A stretch of 64,000 bases of DNA from Ilex aquifolium (taxonomy: Eukaryota; Streptophyta; Magnoliopsida; Aquifoliales; Aquifoliaceae), in the NCBI GenBank assembly GCA_951799425.1, contig OX637406.1, forward strand, positions 29,196,390-29,260,389, written 5' to 3'. The notes below the pieces were generated by a model. The model was not told the DNA's origin. It was given only the letters and a program-made list of their open reading frames with translations, and ran no database searches. Shown in pieces: positions 40,872-64,000 of this stretch; position 1 is the first letter of the stretch; each line of letters begins with the position of its first letter. A program made the translations under genes and the position numbers.

Positions 40872-40873
40872 GG
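40846..40873 (+). repeat. Homopolymer run of 28 G
   Basis: An uninterrupted G tract lies at the left edge of a repeat unit (about 40780-42270). A GAGGGGGGTGAATAGG-type start is common in plant LTR-related repeats, and the tract has probably expanded from it. Its assembled length may be unreliable. Confidence 0.9.
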
Positions 40874-42270
40874 CGGTGAATAGGCTAATTTTAATTTCGC
40901 TTGAACAAATACCAAATTATACCCTAATCTACCACAATTAGCTCTTTCTCAAAAATCAATTAATCAATTAAAAATTGAGAACCCCTTCAACAAGAACAAC
41001 CCATAAAATCCATGAAGATTAGTGTAATGAATTTGTCAATTTTATCAACTGACACTCAATCTCTCACAGTGATCCCAACCCAAGGCAATCAATGCACTAC
41101 CAAACCATTATGAATGATATGAAGATTCAAACAATCATATTGACAAACACATAGTGCTCGTGTGTGCTACAAATCACAAGTGTGTAAAATAAAGTAATAA
41201 ATAATACAAACAATTTGTTGACACATAAATCTTTTCGGGAGCCTAATCCATATCCCATAGTCAATCTAAAAGTACTCAAGTCTTATACCTCCAAACAATA
41301 CTATGGTTAGATGATTCTTTCCTTCAATAGATCTTTCCATTAGATATATCCATCGATGTCATGGATAGTTTCACTTGAACTCCCTGCTGCACATTTCGTT
41401 AGCCTTGAACACTCCTAGAATGCACCCAAGAATCCTGGTATACACACTCTTCAAGTGGGGTTCGTAGAACCAAGCAAGTTCTTCTTCTCCGAAGTGTGAG
41501 GTTGGATAGGAATCACAAGATGTGTTTAGCCTTTGGATTTAGGGATATAGGGTTTTTCTTGCGGACAAAAAAATACAAATTCACGAACGACTGCTTGAAT
41601 AGTGGGAGAGTAGTGGTTGCTGGAATGAAAAAAGAATTCAAATCGTAGTATTAAAATAAGGACCACTCGAGCGACCTTATGATTGCTCAAGCCATCTCAA
41701 GACCGCTCGAGCGGCTTGATAGCAACCCAGAGGGCGGTCTCCACCGTCCACTAGTTCAACCTTTCTTGATTTTATCTCTAAGTGTTCAAAGACTGCTCTA
41801 GCGAAGACTAGCGAACATAGGGCGATCCCTACAGGTTTTTAAGCTAGAAACAAATCAAAAACTTGTTCCTTTGAGCACTGAAGGATGTTGCTCAATTGGG
41901 GTCCGATTAATGATTCAAATCTATGTTTTCAAAATACAATAAATGTTTAGAAACCTTTTCTTTGAGGAACACCTAGGAGTCATTAACGGATCAATCACCG
42001 ATTCCATTTTACATAATCAACCTAAGTCAAATAAATTAAACCAAGGGTGCTAAGGTCTCTAAGGTCATTACTTGTGTCCTAAGCAAGAAGGTGCATATGG
42101 AGAATCTCTCTATGTTGCTTGAAGCACAATCTCTTCCCTTCCATTGATGCTTTTGGATATTCAACTTTGTAGCATCATGACCATGGAATATGTAGATATT
42201 TATAAAAAGACTTCATGAAATTAGCTAATTACAAACATGATCCTATCAATAAACGTTTCATTCTAATAAT
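40874..42270. repeat. Dispersed repeat R, copy 1
   Basis: From about 41440 to 42260 this copy aligns by eye with 47925-48850 in the same orientation. Shared words include GCTCTAGCGAAGACTAGC, CACCTAGGAGTCAT, and GATAGCATCATGACCATR-like sequence near the end. It holds CCGCTCGAGCGG palindromes (41661-41714). No protein was recognised. It is probably a retroelement leader or LTR-like segment. Confidence 0.6.
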
Positions 42271-42289
42271 TCCCTTAAGTATGTACAAT

Positions 42290-44490
42290 CTGTGAGACCC
42301 AAATATGCATGCATGACATTTCATATAGTGTCGGGGGCTTAAATGAGAAAATGTCAATGTTAGCTGTGGGATAAATTATGGTTATTGGGAACTTGGGAAA
42401 ATAAAGTTTAAACCTTGATAATAATTGTTAGTGTCTAATTACTAAATAGACCAAAGTATGGAGTGTGATTGGCTACCTAATGGAAGATTAAATGTGGAGT
42501 TTGTGATTAAAGGGAAACTAGGAGGGGTTTTGGTGTAATTAAGCAAATGTGGTGAGTTATATACACACTTGTATTAACCAAAGGTCTCCTAGCAAGGGTA
42601 TTTCGGTTGAGGCTAAGTTAGTGTAAATTTCTCTCTTTCATGCACCAATTTCCTTGCCTTGGAGGAGAGCTAAGGAGTTGAAGAAGTCATCAACTTTGGG
42701 AGGAGAACTCTAGCTTAGGTGAGGGAGTTTTGCTCAATTGAGGTAAAAACAACCCCTTCTCCTCTCTATATCTTCATAAGTGCCATCTAGGCTCAAGTAC
42801 TTGGATGGTTTTGGCTAGAGTTGGAGCTCAATAATACTAAGGGTGGGACCAGTCGGAGGTTTCGGCTGAGCTTCGACAAAGAAAGCTTCTTGTGGGTAAT
42901 CTCTTAAACTTACAATTTATATGGTTTGAGTCATTAGATATTAGGGAATGAGTGGCCTACTATTTATAAGTGGTTGAGTGTGGAAGAAAAGGTGGAAGGA
43001 GGTGCTAAAACCATATTTCATAACTTCAGTTCAGGGAAGAACCAATACAACTTTGCGTTGTATCGGTACAAAGGCACTCTACCTTGGGATGAACCAGTAC
43101 ATCATGAAATCGATACAACTTGTACCGGTACAACAAGGCTGAATTTTTCCTATCTTTGCTATGGAACCCCTAATACTTCATCCACTCATTCCTTAAGCTT
43201 TCCAAATCATTATATAGAGTTAAGAACAATTCTAACTGGATTAAGTTGTCTACAACTACATGCTTAATGTATTAAATTCGAATTTAGCATGGGGGTTAGA
43301 GTGTTAGCAAGAAAGAGTCTTAACACTAAGAGGTGGTGTTCTGTGAGGGGAATAACAATGCATTAACTCAAACATGAGAGGGTAATCATATATGAACACT
43401 TGAATATAATGTTTGCTTGTGTAATATTAAAATGCATTTTGTGACAACGCATGTATTAGGTATGGAGGCGACTACATCATCGACCATTCCACCTTAAGTT
43501 TCGACAGGGGATCGGATCTGAGGTAGAATTCAACTTGAGGTGAGTGTGCTATCTTTCATTTTTATAATTGGTATGATAGGCTTGCATGTTATCGATTTAT
43601 TATTGTGTTAGGTAATGTTGGATACGTGAAGACATTGCAAGTATGTCAAATAGATTTTTTAGGTAAGTAGGAGCATCTATATATATGTATGTTCTATAGC
43701 CTTGATGACGGATATTGCATGTGTGGCGAATATTTTATGTGTGACAGATTATGCTTGTGTGGCAGATAATGTATGTGTGACGGATATTGCCTGTGTGGCT
43801 AATATTGTCTGTCTGATAGATTATACCTGTGTGGTAGATAATGCCTGTGTGGCAAATAATGTTTGTGTGACAGTTTATGTTTGTGTGATGAATAATGTCC
43901 GTGTGATGGATTATGCCTGTATGCCGAATATTGTCTATGTGACGGATAATGTCTGTATGACGAATTTTGCTAGTGGCAAGTATGCCTTGGTGGTTGTAAC
44001 AATATATATATTTATGATGTATGCGCAAGTATGGTGGTTTCACTTTTACTATGTTGACCTAATATTGATATTAAAAGAATGACATTTCTTCACTTTAACT
44101 GTGCATGTACAATCACTAAGCTTACTGTGCTCACTCTTTGTAGTTTATATTTCCAGGAACCCTATGCAATGAGAGGAGTCCACTACTGAGTCTAGGTGGC
44201 CAAGTGGGATTATACTTGAGAAGTCTTTTGGTGTTTCTCGTGTACTTGGAACATTGTAGATAGTTGGGTTTGCAATTTTTGTGTGTGTGCGTGGTCTGTA
44301 AATATGTGGTTTAGCAGTGAGCACAAACCACCTAAGTATATTTCTAAACTTAACCTTTATTTTGGTTGCTACGGTGGATGTATCTATATTGGGTTTTAAA
44401 GTATATGTCCAAATTACAGGGCTTTGTTTAAATAAGAGAGTCCACCCTACTAGTAATAAGCAAATGTAATATCTCAGGGTTGGGTGCAGA
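42290..44490 (+). mobile_element. Gypsy-type LTR (about 2.2 kb), probably solo
   Basis: The start TGTGAGACCCAAATATG is typical of large Gypsy LTRs. The presumed end lies near CAGGGTTGGGTG at about 44490, where the sequence changes, but the exact end and TSD could not be set. It contains TTGTACCGGTACAA-type palindromes (43061-43133) and an 18-bp minisatellite (43700-43980). No polyprotein lies inside. Together with repeat R it interrupts the Copia remnant. Confidence 0.6.
43700..43980 (+). repeat. 18-bp minisatellite (about 15-16 units)
   Basis: Units follow the pattern TGTGTGACGGATAATGCC with variation. Because 18 is a multiple of three and stops are rare, both strands stay open across the array. 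The plus frame reads as a hexapeptide repeat of the type CVTDxA/CVANxV. This openness comes from the repeat and is not evidence of a gene. Confidence 0.85.
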
Positions 44491-44639
44491 ATGCAAACAT
44501 CGTCATTCATTGAATATTGCCCATACTTTCATTTTTAACATGTATGTACCCAATCCTTATTGGGCAGGCGTTCTCACTACAATCTATCTTATTAATTAGA
44601 TGTCTTCCCCCACCTTAACTAACAAGTCTTTGTTCTCAT

Positions 44640-45110
44640 TGTTCTATCCTGGTACATCATCCTTTAGCCTAACTCCTCGGGTCTTGTTATGTTGTATTTG
44701 TTGATTTTTTTGGTCTGGGTTTGGATAAACTTTCACCTCACTCGGTTAAGTGTGTTTTTCTGGGATACTCTCCTACTCTGAAAGTTTATTTTTGTTATGA
44801 CCCTACCTCTTGTCGATATTATGTCAGTGCCAATATCACCTTTTCTGAGTCATCTTTTTTTCTTGCTTTAGGAACTACTCTTTCCCTAGATTTAATCTCT
44901 ACTAGTCACGGGGAGCTCATATTGCCACCTATACCAGATTGTGTATCTTCTCCCTCTTTGGCTCCTAACCATCCCCTGTAGGTTTACCGTCGTTCCACGG
45001 ACAGACAGGTTGTTCCATATGCTCCATCTCCCTGGCCAACACCTAATTCTACTAAGGTCCATCCTCCTGTGCCGTCTAATGTTTCATCATCTTCTGATTT
45101 GCCTATTTAA
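44640..45110 (+). mobile_element. Copia integrase C-terminal remnant (likely continuation)
   Basis: Translation gives DKLSPHSVKCVFLGYSPTLK, then CYDPTSCRYYVSANITF and SESSFF, the conserved segment after the Copia integrase core, then a proline- and serine-rich linker. It lies on the same strand as the remnant at 39403-40785 and carries the next part of the polyprotein, so the two probably come from one element. Confidence 0.75.
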
Positions 45111-46106
45111 TTTTATAGGCTTATACTTTAAGCGAAATCCTAATCATTTGCATTTTAAAGACTTATATTTATATTTTCAACCTTCATGATAAATAATATC
45201 AGTCACAATATTTAAAAATAAATAAAATCTTAACTACTTTTTTTTCTTTCTTATAACTATATTTAAATTTTATATTACATAATAGGGACCTCACAAAGAC
45301 AACTATAAAATCTGATATGGAATGATGTTTAATTTGGTTATACCTATATCTTTTTATGTAGTTTTATCTAGTTTTTTACCAAAAAGAATCTTTACGTGCA
45401 ACGCACATGGGCAACAAGAAGTCAAGCTAAGTTAAAATGTCAAGGTTTCAAACCTCTATTTCCTTTGCTTCCACTTTGTCTTGTGCTACAAGTAGCTCTA
45501 CATGATGCAGAGTTAGAACAAGAGCTTGTTCTAGAGTCGGGAAGGTAGCCCTCTGTCATATGTTTCTTTTTTCTCTGAAAAGTGACTTCGACTTAAAGGA
45601 GGGTTTCTTGACCACTTTGATAAAGCTTCCTGTTAGGTAGAGGTGAAAGTCAAGTTCCAACGCTATGCAATCTTATCTATAGGGTTAGACTAGTTACAAC
45701 TATCTTTCCTTTTCATCTCCGACTCTCCCAATCCAATAGTTGCTTCAGCTTTCGCCACTCAAATTTTTTATTTTTCTTTTTATTTCTCATCGAACGAATG
45801 ACATCTTCTTCTAAAATGAAGTCCAAAGCTATGAGTCAAACCCAACATGTATGGAATGTTGAAAAGTTCTAGACACGATGTTGACCAAGTTCAAACTTGA
45901 TCAAAGATGCTAGCATTGTTCACTAAGGAAAGGCACCATTTAGTTTCTAATTCCAACCAATTAGTATTATGATCCAGTGAACAACACTACAAGGATAAGG
46001 AACAAAAAATTGACCACAAAAGTAAAAGAATATTCTAAAACACGTGCTTAACCACAGGCCTTACAAAGCACCTAAATGGCATTTAACACACACACACACA
46101 CACATA
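45111..46106. other. Stretch with no gene recognised
   Basis: AT-rich sequence with no recognisable protein or termini. A (CA)n-(TA)n microsatellite lies at 46085-46114, at the edge of the next element. Confidence 0.4.
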
Positions 46107-46115
46107 TATATATTT

Positions 46116-46969
46116 GGGTGGGGATACTCTCACCCCACAAATATCTATTCCCTCTCTATTAAAATTTTTATAATCAAACTACTAAGTCCACCCTTTCTAT
46201 ACCCACCCCATTTTAACTAAGTCCACCTTCTATCTTCTTAAAATTAGGGTTTCATTAACTATTTCCTCTCATACACACCACACGAAAGAGTTTATTAAAT
46301 ATGGATTTTTTTAGTGAGATACATGTTAGTATTACTTCTTGGTTTAATTTTTGGTTTGATTTCATGTGTGTTGTGTGTATTTTTTTTTTTTTTTTTGTAT
46401 TTTGTCAAGCTTAATTATTTTTGATTTAGGGTTTATATGTATGTGCATATATATGTATTTATTCATAAAATTTTGCAACAAAAAGAAAAAATGAAGCATT
46501 GTAAATTCGTAGATTACTTATAACTATATCTGCACATATAAATTATTCTCGTAGGTATACTCAACAAATTTTTTTGATCCAATTTGTGTCCTTTCAAAGA
46601 GAAGTTAAATATTGTTGCCCACACTATAGCAACACAAACTAATCCTCCTCATGTTAATCTAATGGAGGTTGTTTTGACAGAAGTTAGAATAGGCTTGGAT
46701 AATGCACAAATACATAAGTGATGTAGGCATCTTACTTATCAATCCATATTGAAAAAGTCCTTTTGTGTAGGGTGTATGAGAGGAGATAGTAAATGAAACT
46801 CTAGTTATGAGAAGATAGAAGGTGGAATTGTTATTAAAGAGGTGTGTATAGCATGGGGTGGATTTAGTTAAAATGGGGGTGGGTATAGAAGGGGTGGACT
46901 TAGTTGTTTGAAAATAAAAATTTTAATGGGGTGGAAATGTATATTTGTGGGCTGGGAATAGCCCCACCC
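46116..46969. mobile_element. Mutator-type MITE with long TIRs, 854 bp, TSD TATATATTT
   Basis: The ends are GGGTGGGG and CCCCACCC. The inverted repeat extends about 180 bp inward on each side (for example AACTAAGTCCACC near 46180 against GGTGGACTTAGTTG near 46890). Perfect 9-bp duplications TATATATTT flank it (46107-46115 and 46970-46978), as in Mutator-type elements. The centre is AT-rich and non-coding. Confidence 0.88.
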
Positions 46970-46989
46970 TATATATTTACATAGGAAAA

Positions 46990-47875
46990 TGTAACACATC
47001 CACTGCTCTAAGTGTATACCTCAAGTCAAATTCTACAATGCCCAAGAAATAATTGTTGGGAGTGGAAAGCAATTAAAAAGGCAACAGATCGTGACCCTAG
47101 GGTATTTATAGGGTGAAAACAAACCAACCATAAAATCTAATCACTGCCTATTTTCATCGTAGCGTCCAAACAGCTATATTGGCACCCAGACAGTGATTAC
47201 TCCCAATATCTCCTCCCAGTCAGAACCTCAAAGTACTGGTTCTGAAGATCGTCAGAATGGAGTTCTATCATCCGAAAGGTGACTGGTGTCTGAACGGTGC
47301 TAGCTTCTATCCCAGTCTTCTTATGCCATTTTGACCTACTTAGTGGTCGATTTTCAAATCTTTCGTGAAATACACTTTTGTATTTCTTGGTGTCTAGTTT
47401 CTAGTGTCCAAAAATCATCTTGACCAGTTTTCGTAGAATTATCATAACTTTTGATCCAACCGTCCGATTGAGGTGAAATTTTGACACAATACATAAGACA
47501 TCCAGATCTACAACTTTAATGTTTTTCACTTTTTCAGATTCGAAGTGGATCATGGTCAAAAATGAGAAAAACAAAGGTACTGTGTCAAAACTTTGGGAAA
47601 CCAGTGGGCTAAACCTTCCACATTTCATTTTTCTTGATTTCTTCACCTTTAAGTCTCCAAATCCTCATTGAATGTGTCCATCTCTTCACCACTCATTCAT
47701 CCTTAGTTGCAAGGTTATAAAATCCATCATTTACGCTATAATTACCTGCAACATCGAAAATTCAACATTATTCATAATTTCGGCTAACTCTAAGTACTTA
47801 AATACAAAGTTGAGTTAAAATGCATGTAATGAGGCCATCAAATATACAATATTTTGTGCTCATCAGACCTCCCCG
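46990..47875 (-). mobile_element. LTR-like segment related to the solo LTR at 50535-52395
   Basis: On the minus strand it starts TGATGAGCACAAAATATTG at 47875. From there to about 47430 it aligns by eye with 51950-52395. Beyond 47430 the two diverge. A minus-strand TATA-like CCCTATAAATACCC near 47098-47111 supports minus orientation. Its far end may be TGTAACAC at 46990. No TSD was found. Confidence 0.6.
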
Positions 47876-47924
47876 CTACATGGTTTGTCTAGGCCTCAAA
47901 AAATTATGGGCACACCAATGATCC

Positions 47925-48850
47925 TAGGTATGCACACACCAATGGGTTAATCAAACCAACAAGATCTTCTTCTCCAAGTTGTGAGGTTGTGTAGAATCTT
48001 TAGTGGTAGCTTTTTGGGTCTTAGGAATCTAGGTTATGGTGGAATTTCTCAAGTTAGAAAGATGATTTTCTCTTTTAGAAATCTCACAAGAGGCTTTACC
48101 TAGATGTTGGAAAGGCTCTACCTATTTAAAGGTCCGGAATAAGGGTAGTCTTAGTAAATAAGAAAACTCATATTCATGATCAACCACTCAATCGGTGGGA
48201 GGTGGTGGTCATATGGCATTTTTTTTCGTTGGAATGAATATCATGTTTCAATCCCAACTAAGGAAAGAACCGCTCGAGCGACTATGAGCACCGCGCGAGC
48301 GACCATGAAGGACCGCTCGAGCAAGCTCATAGAGTGAGCCCTGTGTTGCCTTCCATAGCCTTTTCCATTTCCTTTCCTAAGTCATAAAGAGACCGCTCTA
48401 GCGAAGACTAGCAAGTATAGATTGGTCCCTACTGGTTTTTAAGCATAAAACCATGCAAAAACTTATTCTCTTGAGTACTAAAGGGTGTTGTACAAAGAGG
48501 GGTTCGATTATAACTCAAACTATGTTTTTAAAACTCAAATGGTTTAGAAAATCTTTTCTTTTAAAATCACCTAGGAGTCATAGTCGGATTGCTTTCAATT
48601 CCATTTTCATCGTAATCAACGTAAGTGAAAAATAACTACGGGTTCATCTAAGATATCTAGGTCAATACCTTGTCCTAATCATGAAGGTGCATACGGAAGT
48701 TGAATGATGTTGCTTGGATGTTTGATCTCCTCCCTTCAATGATGCTTTCAGATCTTCAACTTGATAGCATCATGACCATAGACTAGGTTGAAATTTATAA
48801 TGGACTCCATGAAATTAGTCAATTACAAATATAATATAACAAACTCCTTT
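47925..48850. repeat. Dispersed repeat R, copy 2
   Basis: It is a direct repeat of 41440-42260 with the same order of conserved words. It carries CGCTCGAGCG (48271-48280), a CCGCGCGAGC variant (48291-48300) and CCGCTCGAGC (48313-48322). Its right end abuts Tat-lineage spacer DNA near 48880. Confidence 0.6.
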
Positions 48851-48879
48851 TAACATAAATGCAATTAGCATCTCTTTTA

Positions 48880-49480
48880 CCGAAGTTTTCTTATTATCAT
48901 TTGTAGCCGTGCATTTTTTTGCTTGGGCTTGCTAGTGTCGTTCTTGTTTTCAAGGGGCTTATGGTGTTCCTCTCTACTCTTTCGAGAGTATTTCACCGAG
49001 TTTTTTTGTAATGTCAACTGTGTTTTTCGGTGGTTAGCAAAAAAAACCCCAACGAGCCTAGGGGATGCTAGGTCTTTTACCAGTAATGGAAAAGTCCCAA
49101 GCTTTTCTTGCTTTTTTTTTACAAGCGGCACTTTTATTTGGTATATCTTTCCATTTTTAACCTTATGATAAAAGTGCCTCATGTAGAGGCCTAGTTTCCC
49201 AAGGCTGAGATTGCCCGAGGTTAGGAATAATTGCACATTGTAAAACTCTTTAAAAGAAATGAGATTTTATTGAAATTCTTTCCATATAATAAAGATGGCA
49301 TTAATTCTCTAGCTAAGAAAATAGAGAAAAGGGGAGAACCTTCAAAGAGGTGATGGACTGTTGTCCTTATTGAGGTCTTCATTGGATGGTACTTACTAGA
49401 AATACTTTTTCAGGTGCTCTGCATTCCAGGAAGCATGTATCAGATGCCTCCCATCTAAGGATCGAAGTTCATAAGTGGAA
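48880..49480. repeat. Post-pol spacer of T1 (homologous to 62730-63206)
   Basis: It aligns by eye with 62730-63206 in the same orientation. Shared words include GAGTATTTCA, ACTGTGTTTTTYGGTGGTTA, CCCAAGCTTTT and AACCTTATGATRAA. In Tat elements with an antisense ORF this would be the non-coding segment between the 3' end of pol and that ORF. Confidence 0.65.
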
Positions 49481-49489
49481 AGCCTCACC

Positions 49490-50534
49490 ATTCGACTAAC
49501 TTGGCAGATGCCTCCCAATTGGGACCCAATTTTCCCTAAATGGGATCTCTTGATGCTAGGGTCACTTTATTTAGTACTAGTTCTCCTGGGGAGAATTCTT
49601 GGATCTTTATTCTTTTGTTATAGTACTTAGCAGTTTGGCTTTGGTAGGCTATAACCCTGATCTATGATTTCTCCCTTCTTTCTTCTAATAACTCCAGATT
49701 GATCCTAATCTATTCCTCATTTTTCTCTTTATTGAAATGTTTAATGTTGTAGGTTTTTAGTCCCATCTCAACTAGAATCACTGCTTCAGTCCCAAAGGCC
49801 AAGTAGAATGGAGTTTCTACGGTTGGAGACCTTAACGTTGTCTGGTAGGCCCATAGGATGCTGGGAAGCTCTTCTACCCATAGTCCTTTTGAGGCTTCCA
49901 TTCTTGTTTTCAATCCCTTCAATTGAGTTCTGATGGTGAATTCAGCTTGACCATTAGCTTGAGGGTGAATTAGGGATTAATAATGATTCCGAATCCCAAA
50001 CTTAGAGCATAATTCTCTAAGGGCATCATTATCAAACTGCTTCCCATTGTTAATTATGAGAACTTTGGGTATTCCAAAGTGACAGATTATGGATTTCCAG
50101 ATGAAATCTCTGAGCTTGTGTTTAGTGATTGTGGCTAATGGTTCTACCTCTTACCATTTGGTAAAATAATCAATGTCAACTACTTCAAACCTGTTATGCC
50201 CTTTTTCGATTGTTAGAGGACCTACTATATCATTGCTCCATTGTGCAAAAGGCCATGGACTAGACACTAGGTTGAGCTCCTACGGAGGGCTGTTGAGGAT
50301 GTTAGTGAACCTTTGGCATTTGTCACAGCTACAAGAAAAATCAATAGCATCCTTTTGTGTAGTGGGCCAGTAGTATCCATGATGAAGAGCCTTATAAGTC
50401 AGAGCTCTTCCTCTAGAATGGTTTCCACAAGCTCTTTCGTGGATCTCACTCAACACATATTAAGCCTCCTCTTGGTCTAGGCAATGTAGGTATGGCATAG
50501 AAAAACCACTTTTGTAAATAATTTCACTTATCAT
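49490..50534 (-). pseudogene. T1 integrase
   Basis: A minus-strand zinc-binding region with ACGNHSRGRALTYKALHHGY and CDKCQRF lies at about 50270-50460. The C-terminal part (49710-49922) reads WVEELPSILWAYQTTLRSPT and FYLAFGTEAV. A final LGPNWEG-type segment, here degraded, is near 49530. Its N-terminal side is cut off by the solo LTR at 50535-52395. The frame resumes exactly on the other side once the solo LTR and one ATCAT are removed. Confidence 0.85.
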
Positions 50535-52395
50535 TGCTTGATGAAAAACGTTGTTATTTTCTAACCTCTAAAAACTATCCCTCAAAATGTGTAGTGTATG
50601 GATAAGGGTAGTGTCACTCTTCCTTGGGATAGTGTCAAAAGAAAGCGCAAGAGGAAAGAAAAATGAGATGGTGGAAATGTGAAATGTGGATGCACAAAAA
50701 TTGTGTGTGTGTGTACAAAAGTTCTCCCCAAACGCAAGGAGTCTTTTGAGTGTCGTGTTTTACTTGAAAAAGTATTCCAAGGTCATCTCCTCAGGGAAGG
50801 AAAGTTCAAGTGTGTGAAGGTGATTTTGTAAAAAAAAAAGGTGTAAAATCTTGTAGTTGGTTTTGGTGAGTTTTGTTCTTAATGAAAATGCAAGAAAACA
50901 AGTGTTGGCTAATCCGAAGGATTCACTCCAATGGGAATCCCAAATCAACTCGAAGCCTTCCTCGAATAGAGCTTAGATGAACGATTGATTCGTGGGAAGC
51001 TAGGGATGAAATGGAGGTGAGGATCCAAGCATAACCCATGACTAGGCCTACGGGATATCAAAGGCTCACAACCGCATCCACTCTCAACTCAGTCAAACCG
51101 AACCATCGTACTCTGAGAGGAGGAATGAAAATGAGTTGAAGTGGTACACCCAAGAGGAGTTCTCTCTTGGATTAACCAACTTAATATCTAGTTACTCATA
51201 CTTGAAGGAAAGATAATGAGGTAATGTAAAGGGCCATAATGAAGAAAGGAAACATTGAACTTAACTTAAAGCAAGAAATCTTAAGCTATGAAGAAAAATA
51301 TTCAATACCCATTTTAAAGCAAGAAATGAAGAAAACTTGGAAGAAACAATGGTGAAATCTAAAATGTAGCATTAAACTTGAAATGTACTTGAAGTAAATG
51401 ACATTAAATGAAGATTACAAGAGTCTTACAATAAATTACAAGTGAAAGGATGGAAGAAAATGCAAAAACATAAGCTTTCTATCTACTATTCGTCATCTTC
51501 TTCCTTGGACTTTCTAAGCTTAGGTAGCCACCCTTGAAATCTTGTGTCAATGCTGAATATATGGAGTGTAGACACTTCAAATTTCGTCCATGAGGCTCTC
51601 CTAGCCTGTGTGTGCAGGCTTCCCATCAATGAGAAGAGATTTGATGGCTTGGACAGGCTAGGAGCAGCCTACCCAGCAACTCCCCAGGCAGCCCCCTTCT
51701 CTCCCATCGTCATTAATGCCCTTGCCTCCAAAGTCTTGAAATTGTGTAAGGATGGCATGGTTATGTGTAGAATATGTCAGGGTAGGTGTGGGAGAAGTGT
51801 AGGTGGGCCCCCAAGAAGTTGGAGAAGACTTGCAGGAGTTCTAGGCATTTTGGGCTATTTCAGAAGAGCGTACCGGTACTCAGTACAGGTACCCGGAACT
51901 TCAGTAGGTAAATCGTACCGGTACGGCGTACCAGTACGCTTATGCTCCGGACCAGTTTTCGTAGAATTGTCATAACTTTTGATCCAACCGTCCGATTGAG
52001 CTGAAATTTTGACACAACATAGAAGACAACTAGATCTACAAATTTCATGTTTTTCACTTTTTCAGATTCAAAGTAGATCATGGTCCAAATGGAGGAAAAC
52101 CGAGGTACTTCCACCAAATGGTGCAGGTGCTGGTGCCTATGCTACCAAACACCGATACCTTCTTGATTTCTTTCACTTTTAATCCTCCAAATCCTCATGT
52201 AATGTGTCCATGTCTTCACCACTCCTCCACACTTAGTTGCAATGTTACAAAATCCATGATTTACGCTATAATTACCTACAACATCGAAAATTCAACATTA
52301 TTCACAAATTTGACTAACTCTAAGTAATTAATTACAAAGTTGAGTTAAAATGCATGTAATGAGACCATCAAATATACAATATTTTGTGCTCATCA
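50535..52395 (-). mobile_element. Solo LTR, 1861 bp, TSD ATCAT, inside T1 pol
   Basis: The plus strand runs from TGCTTGATGAAAAAC to TTTTGTGCTCATCA. Perfect ATCAT duplications flank it (50530-50534 and 52396-52400), and the interrupted pol reading frame continues across the join. It shares its terminal 450 bp with 47430-47875. It contains a cluster of GTACCGGTAC palindromes (51870-51938). No polyprotein is inside. Confidence 0.9.
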
Positions 52396-52697
52396 ATCAT
52401 TACATACCTACTAGCCTTTCGATGAAGTTTCTATGCTTCCATTTTGTTAGATGGCAGGATTTCATATGCCATATACTGAATAAAAGGATGGGTCCACCCT
52501 TGCTCATGCTGGATTGTCTTCCCTTAGCCATTTTCTTCCTCTATGTTGGGCCTTGGGAGGAGTTCCACTAAGATCAAACACGGGAGCTCGTTTTGAAAAG
52601 ATGAGACCAGCTGTGCCAAGGAATCAACATGAGAATTTTCTACTCGTGGAATTTTTGTATATCAAAGCTTTCAAACTAAGTAAGATATTCCTTGACC

Positions 52698-53160: not shown

Positions 53161-53164
53161 ATAG

Positions 53165-54160: not shown

Positions 54161-54374
54161 TCCTCTTCTATTTGACTGGCTTGAATGAGGGGCTCATATT
54201 AAGCTTATGGGCTATAACCTGGGGATCAATTCCTGGCACGTCCTCATAGCTCCAAGTGAACACATCTGAGTTAGTTCATAGAAAATCCTCAATTTCTATC
54301 TTGACCTGGGAGGGAAGGATTGAACCTATATATGTCACTTGGTTCGGGGTTTGTCCCATGGCTATCTGGATCAA

Positions 54375-54840: not shown

Positions 54841-54849
54841 AATTCCTTA

Positions 54850-55537
54850 ACATCTGATCTGGCTCTTCTGGTAGAGCTAATTTCTACTCCAGTTTGAAAA
54901 ATTTCAAAGATGACCTTTATCTCCCTGGGCGGTTTCTGGTGCTCACGAGGCTCTGTAAGAGGAACTCTATCTTCTCTCTGATTTCTAGCCTCAAACCTCC
55001 CCAAATGGCCTTGCCATATCAAGTCTTCTATTTGATCCTTGAGGGTGATGCAATCCTCTATGTCATGGCCTTGGTCACAATTGAATTGGCAATACTTATC
55101 TCTTGCTCGCTTGCTAGGAGGCGTTCTGAGCTTTGCAAGCCATTTTAGTACATTATCGTCTTGTATCTGGAAAAGTACTTGTTTAATCGAGGCAACGAGA
55201 GGGCTATAACCTGGATAACTACCTGGCGAGAGTGAGGTCTTAACCTCTCTCTTGTAGGTACACGATCTATCTTCCCTTTTTTTGCAAGTGTTAGCATTGT
55301 CAAGCTTTTCCTGATCTTTTCATTTCTTTTTAGAAGTACGGTTCTCCACCTTTTTTCTGGAATTTAAGGCATCCTCCGCATTCATATGGTTTTGAGCTCT
55401 AGAGAGGAGCTCTGCCATACTTGTAGGTGGAGCTTTGAAAAGTGAGAACAGGAACCTGTAGGGCTAAAGTCCTCCCATAAAGCTAGTCAAAACTACCTTA
55501 TCATCAACATTGTTTATTTGTAAAGACTCTTCTGTGA
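54850..55537 (-). pseudogene. T1 gag C-terminal part
   Basis: The minus strand encodes FTEESLQINNVDDKVVLTSF near 55480-55537, then MAELLSRAQNHMNAEDAL near 55370-55430, and DQGHDIEDCITLKDQIEDLI near 55020-55080, a CCHC-like region before protease. The gag frame is interrupted at 55537 by the 2.9-kb solo LTR and continues at 58482. Confidence 0.85.
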
Positions 55538-55542
55538 ACCTT

Positions 55543-58476
55543 TGTCACACCATAATTTCCCCAAGCATGCAACATATGTTACTCCAAGCCGGGGAAGCAT
55601 TCAATAGTGTAAATATGATCTAGTATAACGTAGTAGACCAACCCACATAGATGAACTAAGCATTAAATGTTACATTTATTTTATTTACATCCTCTTCACA
55701 CATTTCCTAAACTGTATAAAACATCTGGTAGTTCAACTATTTACAGATCTTTCAGCTTTCACATATCTAAAAAGGGAGAAACAATGTAGGGTTAGTATCA
55801 ACAACTTAGTAGAGTAACTCAATGCCAAGAAAATGTGTCTAAAAATACATAGTTTAGTATAATTGGGCAAAAGAAAAATGAGCATTTGATACATATATAA
55901 GTAAAAATGCCATTTTATGTGAAATAGTATCATTTAAGCAAAGCTTAACGGTAAAAGAGAGTTCAGAAACATCCTATACAATGCTACATCGATGGGCAAT
56001 CATCCTAATAGACCACTCAGGGTCAATACGAACATACAATCCAACCTTTTGGGGGACTTGCACACGCTCCCTACTTAAAGTTCAATAGCTAAGTTCGAAG
56101 ACCAACTAGGTCACCCAAGAATTTACGAACTCAATGAGAAACACTCTACGACCTAAACCTAGAACATAAACCTTATGTCACTCAACCTGTGTACACTTAC
56201 ATTTCATTCAAAAGGATTTCGACATTTCATTCAATAGGAACCATATGGTCATTTTGAAGAGTTGTGCATAACCACACTCGAAACCCTAATTTGGGTTCGA
56301 ATCTCCAGCCAATGTTCAAACACCCAATCATGTAATTCAAAACATGCTAAACATTTACAAATAATGTAAGGAATAATTTTAAAACAAGTTTGAAAAACAT
56401 CACCTGATATGGAATTGAGAAACTCTACCAATCACAGTATTTCAGTCCGAAATTGGCAAAAATAAAATGATTTTATTTTTCAATGAAATTTCATACCATA
56501 CTCAATTTAACTATTTAAGATTGAAAATAAAATTTATTTGCAAAAAATTACCCAAAAATTGGGTTAAATTGGCCTCAGAGGGAAAAATAAAATTTTTACA
56601 CCTCATTTTGATCAGGGTATCGAATTGACCTAAGATTTTACGGGGACCACCATAAGTGTCTTAGGGTCACAACCACAAAAACCAAGGGTCCATTGGACCT
56701 CTCACGCGCCATCACACGCCAACTGGGCCACTAGACTCCCGCCCCCACCTTCTTCTTTGTCTTTAAACTCCAACCAAAAACCTAGGTCCCTACTACTCTT
56801 CAAACCACCCCACTTCACTGCCCAATATCTCACTACCCAGTGCACCATTCTCTATATTTTATGATTCTATGAACTCTCCTCACACCCCTCTGTGGGACCT
56901 CATAGGTGAGGTACCTTGAATCAAACCCAAACCTCATAAAATATTAAACCAAAGTTTGTGAAAAATATTTGTTTTCCACCATGGCCGGACCTGCAACTGG
57001 CGTTTTCACCCTTTAAACGGCCCTAGACCTCATTTTAAATGGTGGAAATGGAATCATTAGGTCCATTTTAGGCTAGTACAATACCCTTTTAACTCTTTAA
57101 CACACAATTTAGCAAATTAAGCTTTCAAAACCTTAAAACCCTAACCTCAAACCACCACTGACCACGACGGCCATCCAAACCACCACCAAACATCCCATTA
57201 AACTCCCAAAAACCAAACCCCAAGCTTGATTAAACTAAAGCCTTAACAATCAACAAACCCATTTCATACTCTTATAAAACCCAAAAATTTCAAAACACGC
57301 TTTCATGCATACACAGTAATCAAAACACAAATTAAATATCATATTGAGCTTCCTAGCATCCTAATTAGTCTAGTATGATACCTTTCCTTGCTCGACTTTA
57401 CCCCTACAAAATTCAAGTTTTGCAAAGTGGACCTCTTTCTCTCTAGCTTCTCTCTTCTATCCTCTATCATGTAGCTAGGAGACCTCCCAAAGAACCAGCA
57501 AGCTGCTTGAAAGTGTTGACCATGCAATGGCAATTATGTAATTTCACCCAAATCTGAAAATTAATTTTTAATATATATATATTATAATTACATAAATGTT
57601 AAAACAAGCCCTATAAAATTGTCGATTAAAATTTTAAGGATTAATTGCACTAGAGATCCCCAAAGTATGGGGTCTGTCTCATTTTGGTCCCTAATGTTTC
57701 AATTGCATCATTTTAGTCCCAGCAGTATTGAATATGTTTCTATATGGTCCTTCAAGCAGACAATGTCCAGATTTCTAATGATTTTTTATCATAAACTTGT
57801 CACGTAATAGTTAAATATGGATAAAAAATAATTTTGATAGCTCTTAAACAAAATTTGGGTAGCTCTTGACCAAAAAATGTGTAATATGGGTAGCTTTTGA
57901 CCAAAATTTGGATAACTCATGATCAAAACTGTGTAATTTAGGTAGGTATTTAACCAAAATTTGAGTATAAATTTGGTCAAGAGTTATCCAAATTATTTTT
58001 TTGTCCATATTTAAGTATCATGTGACAAGTTTATGATAAAAAATCATTAGCAATCTGGACACTGTCTGCTTGGGGTACCATATAAAAACATATTCAATAC
58101 TTCAGGGACCAAAATAATGCAATTGAAACATTGGAGACCAAAATGAGATAAACTTCATACTTTAGGGACCTCTAATGCAATTAACCCAAATTTTAAATTT
58201 CAAATTGACATTTAATTTCATCCTCGAACCTCATTCCCGCACCCCTAACTCTCAGGTACGCACCAATCCTACTTCGTCTGAATTTGTGTTCCGGTTCGCT
58301 CACTCTTCACCAGTCACACTCCTACCCCAAACTAACACCTTATTCATCCTCAGAACACCTACGCACACACTTTGGAAGTATCAATTCCTAGTCCGACTAT
58401 CCATACTCTGAACCCTAATCACTCTTCCACCCGTTCTTATCCTAATTTTCATTCATTGAAAAACTAGGTTGTTACA
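55543..58476. mobile_element. Solo Gypsy LTR, 2934 bp, TSD ACCTT, inside T1 gag
   Basis: The plus strand begins TGTCACACCATAATTTC and ends CTAGGTTGTTACA. Perfect ACCTT duplications lie at 55538-55542 and 58477-58481, and the gag frame is continuous across the join. No coding domain lies inside. It carries a Mutator-type MITE at 57638-58188. Its orientation is not certain. Confidence 0.88.
57638..58188. mobile_element. Mutator-type MITE, 551 bp, TSD AAATTTTAA, inside the solo LTR
   Basis: The left end GGATTAATTGCACTAGAG and the right end CTCTAATGCAATTAACCC are inverted repeats that extend about 170 bp inward (for example CTCATTTTGGTCC near 57678 against its complement near 58140). Perfect 9-bp duplications AAATTTTAA flank it (57629-57637 and 58189-58197). 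The centre has repeated GACCAAAATTTG words. Confidence 0.87.
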
Positions 58477-58481
58477 ACCTT

Positions 58482-59275
58482 GCCACAAACTACTGAAGTG
58501 ATTCTCCCTTCGTCTGTTTGGGATTCAAGATATAGGTGGTAGGCTTCCTATGCATTCTTCGTCCGATAAAATGAGAAAGAAAATACTTGCTAAGTTCCAC
58601 AAAAGACCCTACAGACCCTGGGGAGAGTGTATTGAACCAAAGGCAAGTTGTTCCCTTGGGTGTAGTAAGGAATGCTCTTCGACTGACTTGATTTAGGACA
58701 TTGTGTAGTAACATTAAAGATTTATAGATTTCGAAGTGATTCAAGGGATCCTTTTTTCCATCAAAGCTATCTATTGAAGGCAACTTGAATTTTGATGGTA
58801 GTGGATAGTGTGTGACATGATGCATGAATGGGGATTCTAAATGCTGGACCTGAGTTTCCACCATTTTCAGAGCTTTGGCTTCGACATTGTTAAAAACATC
58901 ACCAATTTGGTCATTGAATTCCTTGAATTTTCGGTCTAGAGATGCATTCTCTTCTGGTTAATGAAGAGTATCATTCTGATTGCGCTAATCTTTTCCAAAC
59001 CTTTTTGGTTTGCGTGGAGTCTTTTTTGAATAAGAAACTTGTTGTGGCTACTGATGTTGGCCAGCAAGGGCTTGAAGATTTGCTGAGTTTGTTGTGCCAA
59101 GCCTTCAACGGTTTGGTTCAGTCTAACATAGTTTCTCTCTAAATTGAGGACACTTTGGCCTGTAGGGGTTCCCTTTCACGGTTGTCTCCTTCGTTCCTCT
59201 TCTGTGAATTCTACTCTCTTAGGGGATCATCTCTGGTTACATCCATTGATCTGGTGATCACCATCCACCACCTTC
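58482..59275 (-). pseudogene. T1 gag N-terminal and central part
   Basis: The 58490-58864 frame includes HYPLPSKFKLPSIDSFDGKK, DPLNHFEIYKSLM, RRAFLTTPKGT and WFNTLSPGSVGSFVELSKYF, the core of the Tat/Gypsy retrotransposon gag family. Upstream, to about 59275, a Gln-rich segment (LAQQTQQIF) fits the gag N-terminus but holds stops. Confidence 0.87.
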
Positions 59276-59341
59276 TTTTACTAAATCTTAGAAAATGCAA
59301 AAAAATCAAGTCATTTTCCACAGATGGTGCGAAACTATTGG

Positions 59342-60090
59342 TGTAGAAATCAATCCTAACCTCTGGGTAAGCTGGTCTCTTTGATCTTCGTCACCCTTCC
59401 AAGTGATTTGAATAGGTTAGGAGAGTGTAGATTCAGCTTTCTAGGACTTCAAAAGAGGATTCTCCAAGCTCGAACACCTGAAATGGAAGTCTAAGACTGG
59501 AATGGGAACTCTGGGGGTCGACCCCCTAAGCTCCCTTTTATAGTGTTTCCTGGAAAGGATCTCAAGGTATTTACTAGACAAGTTCTTGCGTACCTTAGGT
59601 CTTTCTCTAAGCTCCTTTTTATAGTGTTTTAGATGAATAATGAGTGAGGAGTGGACTATGGGCTCCTCCGTTTGTTCTTGGAGGTTAAGTCTCTTTTCTT
59701 TTGAGGTGTTTAACCTCCCTTATATTTGTAGGACTCCCGTTTTGGTTGGAATTTGTCTCTTCAAGTGGCGGGAAGGACTCCTCCACATGGGGGAGTCTTT
59801 TTTAATCCTAGATAGGCTTGATAAAGGCAAGGACCCCTTTGAATTGAGGTATATCTGCCTTTTAACCATTTATCCTCTATAGGCATACTATTGACCTTAT
59901 CTTGGGGGCTATTTGATTTTCAAATTCTGCATAACGTGATCCATAAGATCTCTTTCACGTGCTTGCTAGGTAAGGGATGACTGATTATTAAGAGTAGGCT
60001 TGCTTCAAGCTTTCCCAGTACTGCTAGAAATTTGTTGTCCTGTTGAAACTTTCTCATCATAGTAATTAATTTTCTCCCACATCACATATC
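59342..60090 (-). mobile_element. Tat LTR: 5' LTR of T1 and probable 3' LTR of T2
   Basis: On the minus strand a TATA-like CACTATAAAAGGG lies near 59536-59548. The LTR appears to end near TTTCTACA (about 59342), directly before a TTTCGCACCATCTGTGG segment that resembles the PBS region of Tat elements (usual form TGGCGCCGTCTGTGG). The gag of T1 follows. On the other side begins the antisense-ORF region of a second Tat element, so one LTR appears to serve two elements. The outer limit near 60090 is approximate. Confidence 0.55.
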
Positions 60091-60359
60091 ATTTAATATA
60101 ATGCAAACATTTTACCCATGCAAATTCTTATTAAAATAGAAAATGAAGAAATTTTATTAAATAATAAAGTAAGTTTCACTACAAAAAGAAAGCTTTTAGT
60201 ATATAACTCTATCAACTTCTACATCTCTAAAAATCTTGATGGCAATCTGGAATGTCTTGGCTATGCTGTTCCTTTTCAATTTGTTTACTATAGATTTTTA
60301 TTTCTTTCTTGAAGATCTTTTTAAGGTATTTCAGTCTCTTCTTGAATCCCTGATCTATT
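60091..60359 (+). other. Upstream region of the antisense ORF
   Basis: AT-rich DNA between the shared Tat LTR and the first ATG of the antisense ORF. It would hold the polypurine tract of T2 (minus strand) and any promoter of the antisense gene, but neither could be placed firmly. Confidence 0.35.
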
Positions 60360-62494
60360 ATGCTCCTCGTAACTATTGTTGATTCTTGCTTGGACTTCTT
60401 CCGCTCTTTGAACCAGCCATCTCCTCCTTCATTCTACGCTCTTTATAACTGCCTATTCCCTGTGGCCTCTGAAAAAAATTTGTTTGATCTCATACTTCCT
60501 TTGGTTCAAGAAACAGATCTTGCCAATGAGGAAATTAAGTTCCCCGAAGAGGATCCCTCAGGGGAAGCCTTTGTTTCACTTGAATTATCTACAAAGGGGG
60601 TGCATAGTAGTATCACTAATAAAGATCTTGGAGCTTGCTATTATCATGAAGGCAAAGTCTATTTTTACGAAATCGCCTTGACTGTGGGACTCAGGTTCCC
60701 AATTCACCCTTACATATGCAATTTCTTGTCTTTCTTTAATATTGTCCCGACCCAACTTACTCCAAATAGTTGGAGACTTTTAATAGGTTTGGGTGTTCAT
60801 TGGGGCTTTGCCCATGGTGTGGGTGTGTTCCCTTTTGTGGGAGAGATTCTTCATTCCTTCAAGATAAAGGTCGGTGCTGGCCCAAGCTATGGGTGGTACT
60901 ACTTAACCAAGAGGCCTAATAGCACTGATATACTGATCATGATTCTCACTCCTCCAAAAGAGTGGAAGGACCGATTTTTCTTTGTTTCTAGTTTGGGCTA
61001 GGAGTTCAACCCTTATGAACCTTTTTATGATAAACACTATCAGAGTTCTTTCTTGCTGGGTGATGCCTCCTTCTTCTGGTAAGTCTACAATGCCTTCTTT
61101 GTTTTTGTTTTTCTTTTCATAGAAGGATAAGAAATTGATGGCCTATACCACTTGCAGTTGATAATGTGACCTTGCCATAGAAATTTATGTACAGAGTGAA
61201 GGTGGTCCAAAGCCACACGAATAAGGAATTAGGTCTTCTGGTGATCGACATGAATCTGTTTAAGTTCAAACTAGGGCCTGAACTGCAATATGCTATTATT
61301 ACTATAGCAATGCCCCTTAAGAGTAAGTAACCGACCTTTTTTGTTGAAACAAAAATATTTTTTTTTCTTTTGGTGATGGTCTCACTCTTTGATGTTTTCC
61401 CCCCTATTTAGGTATTTTGCCAATAATTGATAAGAAGGCCCTTTGTAACGTCGGGCTAAATAATCTTTGAAGGGTTTCACTAGCCCTTCTCTACCGATTA
61501 CTTAGAGGTTGACGTGTGGGGGCTCTCCTATTTTGAAAATTTCCCCTGATGTTTCAGCTTCTATAGAGGTGATACCGTTTGACGTGGAATCCTCCCCTGA
61601 CATCCCCTTTATCAAAAAGTGAAAGAAAATAGTAGAGGTGAAACTTCCTACTCATGAGTCCTCCGAGGGTATCCTTACTTTGGACCCTACTCCCCATATT
61701 GCTAAGGCCGATGCTACTTTGAAGAGAGTGTGAAATAGTCCGGAGCTCGCTATGAAGAAATTTTAGGACTTCATTTCTTGTCTTGAAGTTGAGGAGGTGA
61801 TGAAGCTAGGATAATTCAAGGTCTCCAACATGATGGCCCACAACATCTGCAAGGTAGCTTTTAAGCTTAACTACCTGATCTTCTATTTTACTTTTAGCGA
61901 GTCTGATACTTCTTTCTTTTTGTGTATATGCTAGATGGCTATACTAGCAACCGGGATAAGATGTTTAGCTTACATGGAGGAGAATCCTATAAAGGAGAAG
62001 TTGGAAATCGCTCTTAAAGAAATTCTGGTTACTAAGAAGGAGATTATCTCTCGTGATAAGGAGTTAGTGTCTGTTTGTGCTGATCTAGATGATATCAAGA
62101 ACTCCTTAGCGATCAATAAGGCCGCTAAGAGAGGGCTAGAGGAGGCTTTAATGCGATCTCAGGAAGAAGCCAACCAAGCTAAAGAGAGAGAGAGAGAGAG
62201 AGAAGAGTTTGGCTCACCAGCTATCCACCCTTTTGGAGAACTCCCAGAAGCTCATCAAGGATCTTGGGGTTGCTGTTGTGGCTACTTTCTAGCAAGTCAG
62301 CCAAGTTCATTAAGTTTAGAATGAGCTACTGGGATGCTGGCTTTGAAGAATTCGATGACCATGCCTTGATGTTATACCCTAATCTTGAATTTTCTACTAT
62401 CATATTGGATGATGATGACACTCCCCATAGACAAGTTGCAAGCGAAGAAGGGAGCTCTACCGGTGATCGGATGGAGATTAATGTAGTTATCTAG
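60360..62494 (+). pseudogene. Antisense ORF of Tat element T2 (Transposase_28-like)
   Basis: The first segment (60360-61001, 213 codons) contains YFYEIALTVGLRFPIHPYIC, NIVPTQLTPNSWRLLIGLGV, then GWYYLTKRP and KEWKDRFFFVSS. This matches the plant family Pfam calls putative gypsy-type transposon (Transposase_28). It reads on past one TAG to a GTAAGT donor at 61079. A second exon-like piece lies near 61145-61325. The last segment (61935-62494, two frameshifts, one at a GA repeat) is a coiled coil (EIALKEILVTKKEII-like) followed by FEEFDDHALMLYPNLEF and an acidic tail DDDDT. Such extra ORFs are known antisense to pol in Tat elements. Their role is unknown. This copy is broken. Confidence 0.75.
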
Positions 62495-63206
62495 GAATCT
62501 AATCTTTTTTTTTTTTTTGTTTCAGAACTCTTGTAAATATAACTCATTTTTGTATGAATGCAATCAGCATTTCCTTACTGGAGCTTTCCCATTTTTATTT
62601 TCGAAGTTACCTCTTTTTCTTTTTCTTTTTCTTTTTTTTTTTTATTATTTTTTTTGTTGTGGGCTTTAACAACCTTACTCTTGTTATTAGGGGCATTTTA
62701 GTTTTGCTTTGAAGGTTTAGCTTACCTCGTTTTCAACCTTAGCAGTGTTCCCCTTTATCTTTCAAGAGTATTTCATTGAGTTTTTTTTTTTTATAATATG
62801 AACTGTGTTTTTTGGTGGTTAGCCAAGTTGATCCCGAGTGAACCTAGGCGGGGCTAGGTCTTTCGCCAATGAAAGTAAGTTCCCAAGCTTTTGTTGCCCT
62901 TTAACAAGCTAGGCACCTTTTTATTTGGGTTACCCTTCTCTTTTCAACCTTATGATGAAGGTGCCTTACTTGGAGGCTTGGTTTCCCTAAATTGAGCTTA
63001 CTCAAGGTTACAAAATACTGTACATTGTGAAACTTTTTGAAGGAAATGATATTTTTTTGAACTTTTTCCTATATAAAAAAGATTACATTAAGTCATTAAC
63101 TAATGAAAAGGAGAAAAAACCTTTAAGAAGGCGGTGGACTACTCCCCTTATTAACGTGTGTTAGCTGCCTCCCAGCCAAGGTTCGAAGCTCATAAGCACT
63201 AGGTCT
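62495..63206. repeat. Post-pol spacer of T2
   Basis: T-rich sequence after the antisense ORF, then about 480 bp homologous to 48880-49480. In an intact element, pol on the minus strand would follow at higher coordinates. Here it is cut off by the LTR that starts at 63207. Confidence 0.6.
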
Positions 63207-64000
63207 TGATGAATAGCTAAAATTAATGATTAGTAGTTAAAATTAGCATATTACTATGCCTTTTTAAGACTAATTATACTTTGATGGAGTTTAAATGATG
63301 ACATTTCAGGACAAATATTGTACAAGGGTCTAAAGTCAATACATATCAAACTTTCATGCAACAACTGCATGTTCAGGAAGAAAATTGGAAAAGTTGTGAA
63401 ATAAGTCATGGACGTTCGAATGTCCTCTTGAATTATTGGAGGACCAGACTGCTGAGATGATGATACATGGCGTGTTGTAGCTAAGAAGGAAAAAATAGAG
63501 GTACTGGAGTACCACGTTCGAACGCCAATCCACGTTGGAATGTTGTCCTGAATTATTGAAGACCAGGCTGCTGAGTGTAAGGGCAATGGTAGATGGCGAG
63601 TGGAAGTTTCTCTCACAGAGGAACATAGGCCACTTTGAGTAGGAGGTTCAAACTCCATCTGGCGTTCGAATGTCCATCAAGCAAAGACAGGAGACAACGT
63701 TCGAATGCCAGACAACATTCGAACATTGTCCCCAGACAGGCTGCAAAATGGTTGCTTTTCTATCCGGACCTTGGGGCTTTCACTTGGACTTTCACTTGGA
63801 CTTTGAAGACCTTGTACTATTCCTTGACACTTCTTGTCCCCTCCTCCTTGCTTATAAATACTCCCATTGTGGGAGCTTCAAGGCAACACTTTAGAGCTAG
63901 AGCTAGTTGTAGAGTTAGACTTAGATTTACATTTACTGGCATAGAGGAAGATAGATCATCTTTTGGTTGAGATGGAAACCCTCCAAAAGTGACTAACTTT
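63207..64000 (+). mobile_element. 5' part of another LTR, running off the window
   Basis: It starts TGATGAATAGCTAAAATT at the point where homology to the T1 spacer ends. A TATA box TATAAATA is at 63853-63860 and a plausible transcript start follows, so it is in plus orientation. CGTTCGAA-type palindromes occur at 63413, 63515, 63663, 63698 and 63716. No protein was recognised in its open frames. Confidence 0.6.

Follow-up and report, generated by a model that had tools for sequence, protein, structure and literature searches.

Three clusters of short palindromic words in a 64-kb window of Ilex aquifolium DNA (the whole stretch of 64,000 nucleotides analyzed here) are stronger than chance produces, and the likeliest reading, which we hold with moderate confidence from the sequence itself, is that such words are promoter boxes set in small arrays in the U3 of several plant LTR families, each box being dyad-symmetric, CpG-bearing and putatively bound by a dimer, and are of the same kind as the repeated motifs (RMs) of Sireviruses. 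The six exact palindromes listed in an earlier note on this DNA are all present at the coordinates it gives, and their variants are there too: four sites in each of two copies of an LTR family R (R1 and R2), four in a solo LTR, seven in an LTR at 63.2 kb, and three with at most two mismatches, plus one with three, in an LTR-like repeat at 42.3 kb. That note knew of no standard name for the feature; a published counterpart exists in the Sirevirus RM boxes, described as palindromic by Bousios et al. 2010 (PMC2829016).

Enrichment over dinucleotide shuffles holds for the three best clusters. In a Markov-corrected scan of the whole window with all 256 palindromic 8-mers (at most one mismatch, 250 bp), the top three clusters, AT microsatellite aside, were GTTCGAAC (63.5 kb), GCTCGAGC (41.7 kb and again 48.3 kb) and TACCGGTA (51.9 kb), with scores of 8.2, 8.16 and 7.14; only two forms of AT microsatellite scored as high. 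Block-wise dinucleotide shuffling, repeated 300 times, gave a mean best score of 4.91 and a third-best score never above 5.26, and three clusters this strong together occurred in 0 of 300; since the best shuffle reached 7.43, the third real score, taken alone, falls just short of it. The 42.3 kb cluster, by contrast, is not significant by itself (score 3.88). In a second, decay-tolerant scan with 1024 palindromic 10-mers, its ranking limited to words with at least 40% G+C, the previously listed clusters took the first four places among 194 bins and the 42.3 kb LTR came tenth. For palindromic 8-mers with at least 50% G+C, the clusters in R1, R2, the solo LTR and the 63.2 kb LTR scored 8.99 to 9.40, versus at most 1.79 in four stretches from the LTRs of two Copia elements, which held no comparable palindromic cluster. 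The cluster words are even-length dyads with no loop, and the CpG observed/expected ratio is 0.73 to 1.36 in the five clusters versus 0.47 in the window (1061 of 2235 expected).

Family R provides the comparison between copies. R1 (40766..42248, minus strand; 1483 nt, TG...CA) is flanked on each side by TTTAT, a TSD that is weak evidence, with 0.65 chance matches expected and a second, spurious match inside the LTR. Its cluster (41664..41803) comprises sites of CGCTCGAGCG at 41664, 41684, 41704 and 41794 (1, 3, 0 and 2 mismatches), 445 to 584 nt from the LTR start and hence in its upper half. R2, a second, truncated copy with ends set by eye (47866..48841, minus strand), carries sites of the same word at 48271, 48292, 48314 and 48394 (0, 1, 1 and 1 mismatches; 48271..48403). 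The copies are 74.9% identical where 41778-42241 aligns to 48377-48835. Between them, the words have diverged less than the intervening DNA: word columns are 81.6% identical (49 columns), against 47.9% for the remaining 142 columns of that region, in a comparison of two copies that is biased because word columns were chosen by similarity; 3 of 190 rolled masks did equally well. Elsewhere, identity is 66.6% in the 5' part of U3 (419 columns) and 59.5% downstream (79). The idea that the word is constant within a subfamily is consistent with this pattern as far as two R copies can speak for a family. By eye, the gypsy-like element next to R2 does not have family R as its LTR, as this element's second copy runs into other sequence at the same point.

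The solo LTR (50535..52395; 1861 bp, sense strand probably minus) has the TSD ATCAT at 50530-50534 and 52396-52400. Its words are sites of GTACCGGTAC at 51870, 51883, 51915 and 51928 (0, 1, 0 and 1 mismatches; 51870..51937), 458 to 525 nt from the LTR start, again in the upper half. The earlier note placed this cluster directly beside a segment shared with a relative at 47.4 kb. Such a segment does end beside the cluster, a 5' module of 446 bp (51950..52395, minus strand) with 84.6% identity to 47422-47865, but the difference goes beyond the word cassette: we found no similarity between the two LTRs downstream of the module. We therefore reject a cassette swap as stated, since everything past the 446 bp is unrelated and not the words alone. 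That the relative has no such word is unproven, as there is a hint of decayed CGTCCGGACG words at 47163, 47250, 47269 and 47287 (three mismatches each; 47163..47296). This is the best of 1024 words in the region, yet its bin ranks 19 of 194 and is not significant; the best palindromic 8-mer there scores 1.44. The 47.4 kb LTR was oriented by TATAAATA at 47103..47110 (minus strand), which lies 51 nt downstream of the final candidate word. A phrase of the solo LTR had no match in viral contigs or in bacterial and archaeal genomes, nor did its stretch 51840-52395 in plasmids or phages. Searches of viral contigs with word pairs returned 23, 6 and 0 loci, which we take for chance or phage sites because none of the 29 had a blastn match to the window.

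The remaining two clusters lie in repeats on the plus strand. The LTR beginning TGATGAATAGC (63207..64000) continues past the window end and holds sites of CGTTCGAACG at 63413, 63515, 63533, 63645, 63663, 63698 and 63716 (1, 0, 2, 3, 1, 1 and 2 mismatches; 63413..63725), 206 to 518 nt from its start; by eye, two of them sit inside a longer duplicated context. The repeat beginning TGTGAGACCC starts at 42291, one position later than previously given, and runs to about 44478, an uncertain end, with no exact TSD found. Its sites of GTACCGGTAC at 43060, 43091 and 43122 (1, 2 and 0 mismatches; 43060..43133, including TTGTACCGGTACAA) lie deeper in, 769 to 842 nt from the start. Successive words are spaced by 20, 20 and 90 nt in R1, 21, 22 and 80 in R2, 21, 31 and 31 in the 42.3 kb repeat, 13, 32 and 13 in the solo LTR, and 102, 18, 112, 18, 35 and 18 at 63.2 kb; these values match 10.5-bp turns in part only, and we do not claim helical phasing. 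Of the four cluster-bearing families, one has an exact TATA box in the 180 nt downstream (63.2 kb, where TATAAATA lies at 63853..63860 on the plus strand, 126 nt past the last word), against 8% of random stretches. One-mismatch forms occur in R2 and the 42.3 kb LTR, with 52% of random stretches having one at up to one mismatch, and neither form is present within the same distance in R1 or the solo LTR.

The closest known system is the set of Sirevirus RM boxes (PMC2829016), which are likewise palindromic, element-specific and CpG-rich, with several copies in the upper LTR, and are reported upstream of TATA. A repeated palindromic LTR motif of this type is found in R1, R2, the solo LTR and the 63.2 kb LTR and weakly at 42.3 kb; upper-half position is seen in R1 and the solo LTR, whose lengths are known, and word distances from the LTR start in these two and at 63.2 kb resemble those of the published boxes. 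The RM criterion of at least eight copies counts per element, with LTR counts down to three in Table 3 of that paper, and our counts of about three to seven are per LTR and from LTRs only. Unlike the RMs, 12 of 13 of which carry a CGG-CCG signature in that table, CCGCTCGAGCGG, TTGTACCGGTACAA, CGTACCGGTACG and CGTTCGAACG do not combine CGG in the left half with CCG in the right half. Another Sirevirus trait is a poly-C-rich integrase signal close to the 3' end of the LTR; in R1 it may correspond to a minus-strand run of 28 C (40846-40873), about 80 nt from the inferred end, versus an average of 21 bp, and it is absent from the solo LTR (longest C run 3). R looks somewhat Sirevirus-like. A poly-C at 37499 was rejected by eye as a second Sirevirus LTR end. 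The genus is further recognized by the PPT AGGGGGAG, the 5'LTR/PBS junction and RT phylogeny. The same source, whose dataset is Ty1/copia only, gives RMs as absent from classic Copia elements, and we did not find such boxes described for Ty3/gypsy LTRs in titles and abstract openings from the literature on palindromes in gypsy or Ty3 LTRs or in portions of PMC10794571, which is no proof of absence. Tnt1, Retrolyc1 and Retrosol (PMC1838419) offer a parallel in their modular, hypervariable U3 variants that separate subfamilies, but the term "palindrom" is absent from the text of that account as available.

The earlier note's claim that the word changes completely between LTRs is incorrect. GTACCGGTAC occurs both in the 42.3 kb LTR and in the solo LTR, which are otherwise unrelated, and the word of R agrees with that of the 63.2 kb LTR at four of five half-site positions (joint form CGYTCGARCG). 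Computed after seeing the words, the odds of this are 0.6-3% for the identical pair and 0.03-0.5% when the 4-of-5 pair is added. The vocabulary is, on these comparisons, smaller and more shared than had been claimed for a fast-changing U3 cassette. Symmetric boxes in or near U3 that are able to bind a dimer do fit the loopless dyads, the better conservation of R1/R2 words than spacers and the CpG enrichment. Each box would consist of two half-sites recognized by a dimeric DNA-binding protein of the plant, and multiple boxes upstream of the promoter would increase element transcription when that protein is present. One factor may serve different elements, given that two otherwise unrelated LTRs use GTACCGGTAC; SBP-box (SPL) proteins, whose domains are described as binding a palindromic GTAC core (PMC8563897), are a candidate only. 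Decayed words tend toward the C-to-T changes that CpG methylation leaves, a pattern that silenced copies should show: across the 15 words of R and the 63.2 kb LTR, 12 of 19 mismatches are CpG transitions. Counting against this, such transitions make up only 2 of 5 mismatches in the solo and 42.3 kb words. We also entertain, as an unlikely extension, that palindromic box arrays are a general plant LTR promoter design beyond Sireviruses. Unrelated lineages would then reuse a small vocabulary, as every word would attract one member of a small set of dimeric host factors, for example the SBP-box proteins that bind GTAC.

The main rival, to which we give about the same low probability as that extension, is that the words act as RNA: neighboring words would pair into hairpins in the transcribed 3' U3 and give rise to small RNAs, making the cluster a hotspot of silencing, an idea already put forward for maize Sireviruses. 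A palindrome-rich cis-region of these elements is reportedly the subject of Bousios et al. 2016 in Genome Res. The clusters mostly fold better than shuffles, which speaks against promoter boxes and for hairpins (z of -4.48 for the solo LTR, -2.42 and -4.62 for two parts of the 63.2 kb cluster, -3.59 for R1, -3.21 for 42.3 kb and -1.75 for R2), with ordinary values in a second solo stretch (51562-51709; -0.69) and in the 47.4 kb region (-0.52), and the CpG decay signature also suits silencing. Palindrome clusters in the regulatory LTR part of maize Sireviruses, similarly folding and fast-evolving, are described as small-RNA mapping hotspots (PMC5311732, PMC10760457). Yet folding is not independent evidence, because any repeated palindrome folds so; the R2 fold was matched by 10 of 200 shuffles, and hairpins require a loop, not the self-complementary, loopless single words seen here.

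Somewhat less probable still is that the words are functionless by-products of mutation, arising by local duplication of a word palindromic by chance. In a scan of all 8-mers, palindromic or not, the five cluster places rank 10, 12, 13, 19 and 28, with a palindromic top word at ranks 10 and 12 only and a best word at rank 28 (42.3 kb) that differs from the cluster word; palindromes are the best word at 2 of the 40 places listed, and non-palindromic clusters of equal or greater strength exist in the window. This, like the weakness and deeper position of the 42.3 kb cluster and the TATA results, counts against promoter boxes, and local duplication would also account for the context around the two 63.2 kb words. 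However, palindromes make up 0.78% of canonical 8-mers yet hold two of the top 12 places, words agree within R while spacers differ, and a 10-bp word is common to two otherwise unrelated LTRs. We consider it very improbable that an anti-silencing protein encoded by the element targets the words and that they diverge by coevolution, like the clustered short non-coding motifs that differ between related VANDAL elements (PMC5735166, PMC10398659), as those are DNA transposons with a known element-encoded binder, the VANC21 motif is described as non-palindromic and arrayed in one orientation (PMC5735166), no internal region belonging to these LTR families was recognized in the window, and a word is common to unrelated LTRs.

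With these putative dimer-binding promoter boxes, a feature published for Sireviruses may reach a type of LTR that is unlike Sireviruses on the one feature tested, the missing poly-C signal. If a vocabulary of such boxes is shared across unrelated LTR families, sequence could predict which host factor wakes which retrotransposon, and one could ask whether these boxes are also what silencing small RNAs target.

In this AT-rich window, which holds the remains of LTR retrotransposons, we found the six palindromes named in the earlier note where it had placed them, together with the word variants it had claimed. Across all 256 palindromic 8-mers, scanned over the whole window with at most one mismatch and scored, after Markov correction, at their best 250-bp place, the top words were GTTCGAAC (8.20 at 63516), GCTCGAGC (8.16 at 41665) and TACCGGTA (7.14 at 51871), two AT-microsatellite forms (8.79, 7.54) being set aside. 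Dinucleotide shuffling within 2-kb blocks, repeated 300 times, gave best scores that averaged 4.91 with a maximum of 7.43; no shuffle had a third-best score above 5.26, compared with the 7.14 of TACCGGTA. A second, decay-tolerant scan of palindromic 10-mers, its ranking limited to words of at least 40% G+C, placed the bins at 48180, 63360, 51810 and 41580 first to fourth of 194, and the 42.9-kb bin, also with GTACCGGTAC, tenth of 194. With all 8-mers scored alike, palindromic or not, the five cluster places drop to ranks 10, 12, 13, 19 and 28; a palindrome is the top-scoring word at just two of them, ranks 10 and 12.

Cluster scores are 9.03 and 9.09 in R1 and R2, the two copies of LTR family R, 8.99 in the solo LTR and 9.40 in the 63.2-kb LTR; they are lower in the LTR-like repeat from 42291 (the 42.3-kb LTR; 3.88) and in the 47.4-kb relative of the solo LTR (1.44). 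As controls we used two Copia elements, apparently nested at 22417-32236: the outer has LTRs at 22417-22600 and 32054-32236 and a primer site at 22601, and the inner (27154-32034, minus strand) has LTRs 98.4% identical. Control stretches comprising both outer LTRs and, from the inner element, 27154-27403 and 31785-32034 had word-cluster scores of at most 1.79. There are 48 stop-to-stop ORFs of at least 100 amino acids in the window; Pfam matches (E 0.01) occurred in 9 of the 20 scanned, two of them below Pfam's own cut-off, and all were of retrotransposon type (Copia pol domains, a gypsy-type domain, a zinc knuckle and an RNase-H-type domain). No internal regions of the word-bearing families were recognized in the window. 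Elsewhere, 33355-33795, bounded by inverted AAGCACGGA...TCCGTGCTT-type ends and holding GGACACG repeats and TCGGACACGTGTCCGA, has the look of a small MITE-like element, one with terminal inverted repeats and subterminal motifs (partly by eye), and about 570 bp at 57626-58196 are self-complementary (78% identity to their own reverse complement).

R1 appears to be a minus-strand LTR (40766-42248) that begins and ends as TG...CA and is flanked on either side by TTTAT, a match for which 0.65 chance occurrences are expected in the stretch searched and which has a second, spurious occurrence inside the LTR. R2 is truncated (47866-48841, ends set by eye). The solo LTR (50535-52395) is flanked by a 5-bp duplication, ATCAT; it and the 47.4-kb LTR were oriented to the minus strand because the latter carries TATAAATA on that strand at 47103. 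The first 446 bp of the solo LTR on its minus strand (51950-52395) are 84.6% identical to 47422-47865, and nothing recognizable is shared beyond them; this common opening with unrelated remainders is a modular LTR structure. About 870 bp between inverted repeats (46106-46976) are perhaps an insertion in the 47.4-kb LTR, and an array of CTGTGTGA-type repeats with 18-bp spacing occupies 43711-43969 inside the 42.3-kb repeat. The 63.2-kb LTR, which runs beyond the window edge, has TATAAATA 126 nt past its last word.

Between R1 and R2, identity is 81.6% in word columns (n = 49) and 47.9% in other columns of the same region (n = 142), a difference that 3 of 190 rolled masks reached and that is biased because the words were picked for similarity; it is 66.6% in the 5' U3 part (n = 419) and 59.5% downstream (n = 79). 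Among 15 words of family R and the 63.2-kb LTR, 12 of 19 mismatches turn C to T or G to A within a CpG (P = 5e-5 if every change is equally likely, 0.035 if transitions are favoured 2:1), as do 2 of 5 in seven words of the 42.3-kb and solo LTRs. CpG observed/expected in the clusters is 0.91 (R1), 1.09 (R2), 0.91 (42.3 kb), 1.36 (solo) and 0.73 (63.2 kb), compared with 0.47 for the whole window. Judging by these mismatches and ratios, methylation and decay seem to have affected the words in these copies.

The earlier note held that words are constant within a family and completely different between LTRs, a pattern drawn from two copies of R and one of each other family. The second part fails for GTACCGGTAC, which is common to the 42.3-kb and solo LTRs, between which the window self-comparison found no further similarity; the vocabulary differs between LTRs, though not wholly. 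The R word is CGCTCGAGCG and the 63.2-kb word CGTTCGAACG. Computed post hoc and depending on the null, the probability that four random words include two identical ones is 0.006-0.03, and that they include a 4-of-5 pair as well 0.0003-0.005. As sole query, the solo LTR had no match among viral contigs, bacterial and archaeal genomes, plasmids and phages. Two IMG/VR viral contigs, L016 and L019, are rich in GTACCGGTAC sites (10 within 14.6 kb and 8 within 5.2 kb), possibly phage operator-like arrays.

The main rival reading is that the words act as RNA hairpins. Fold z scores are -4.48 for the solo LTR, -2.42 and -4.62 for two parts of the 63.2-kb LTR, -3.59 for R1 and -3.21 for the 42.3-kb LTR, and weaker for R2 (-1.75) and the 47.4-kb LTR (-0.52), but such folding is expected of any repeated palindrome. 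As sites for a dimeric DNA-binding protein, the words would have their likeliest explanation, one we hold with slightly more belief than doubt, because they are perfect loopless dyads, lie several hundred bases inside the LTR and, between the family R copies, stay alike where the spacers diverge. For GTACCGGTAC, the SBP-box family, described in part of one source as binding a palindromic GTAC core (PMC8563897), is a candidate binder and a lead.

Passages of Bousios et al. (2010, PMC2829016) describe the boxes of Sirevirus LTRs (repeated motifs) as palindromic, element-specific, CpG-rich and lying upstream of TATA; classic Copia elements are reported there to lack them. The words here resemble the boxes so described in palindromy and position in the LTR but lack their CGG-CCG signature. 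They number about 3-7 per LTR, where the repeated motifs occur at least eight times per element and as few as 3 times in an LTR, and of the families with clusters the 63.2-kb LTR alone has an exact TATA box within 180 nt downstream. R1 has a 28-C run resembling the Sirevirus poly-C signal in style, although it lies about 80 nt from the LTR end, compared with an average of 21 bp; the solo LTR has no poly-C signal. None of the word-bearing families is classed as a Sirevirus here, although family R may be one. Rapid U3 diversification is known from the Tnt1 superfamily, according to part of a further source (PMC1838419). By analogy, the word clusters may work like the Sirevirus repeated motifs, and that they would be regulatory boxes is surer than that their binder would be a dimer.
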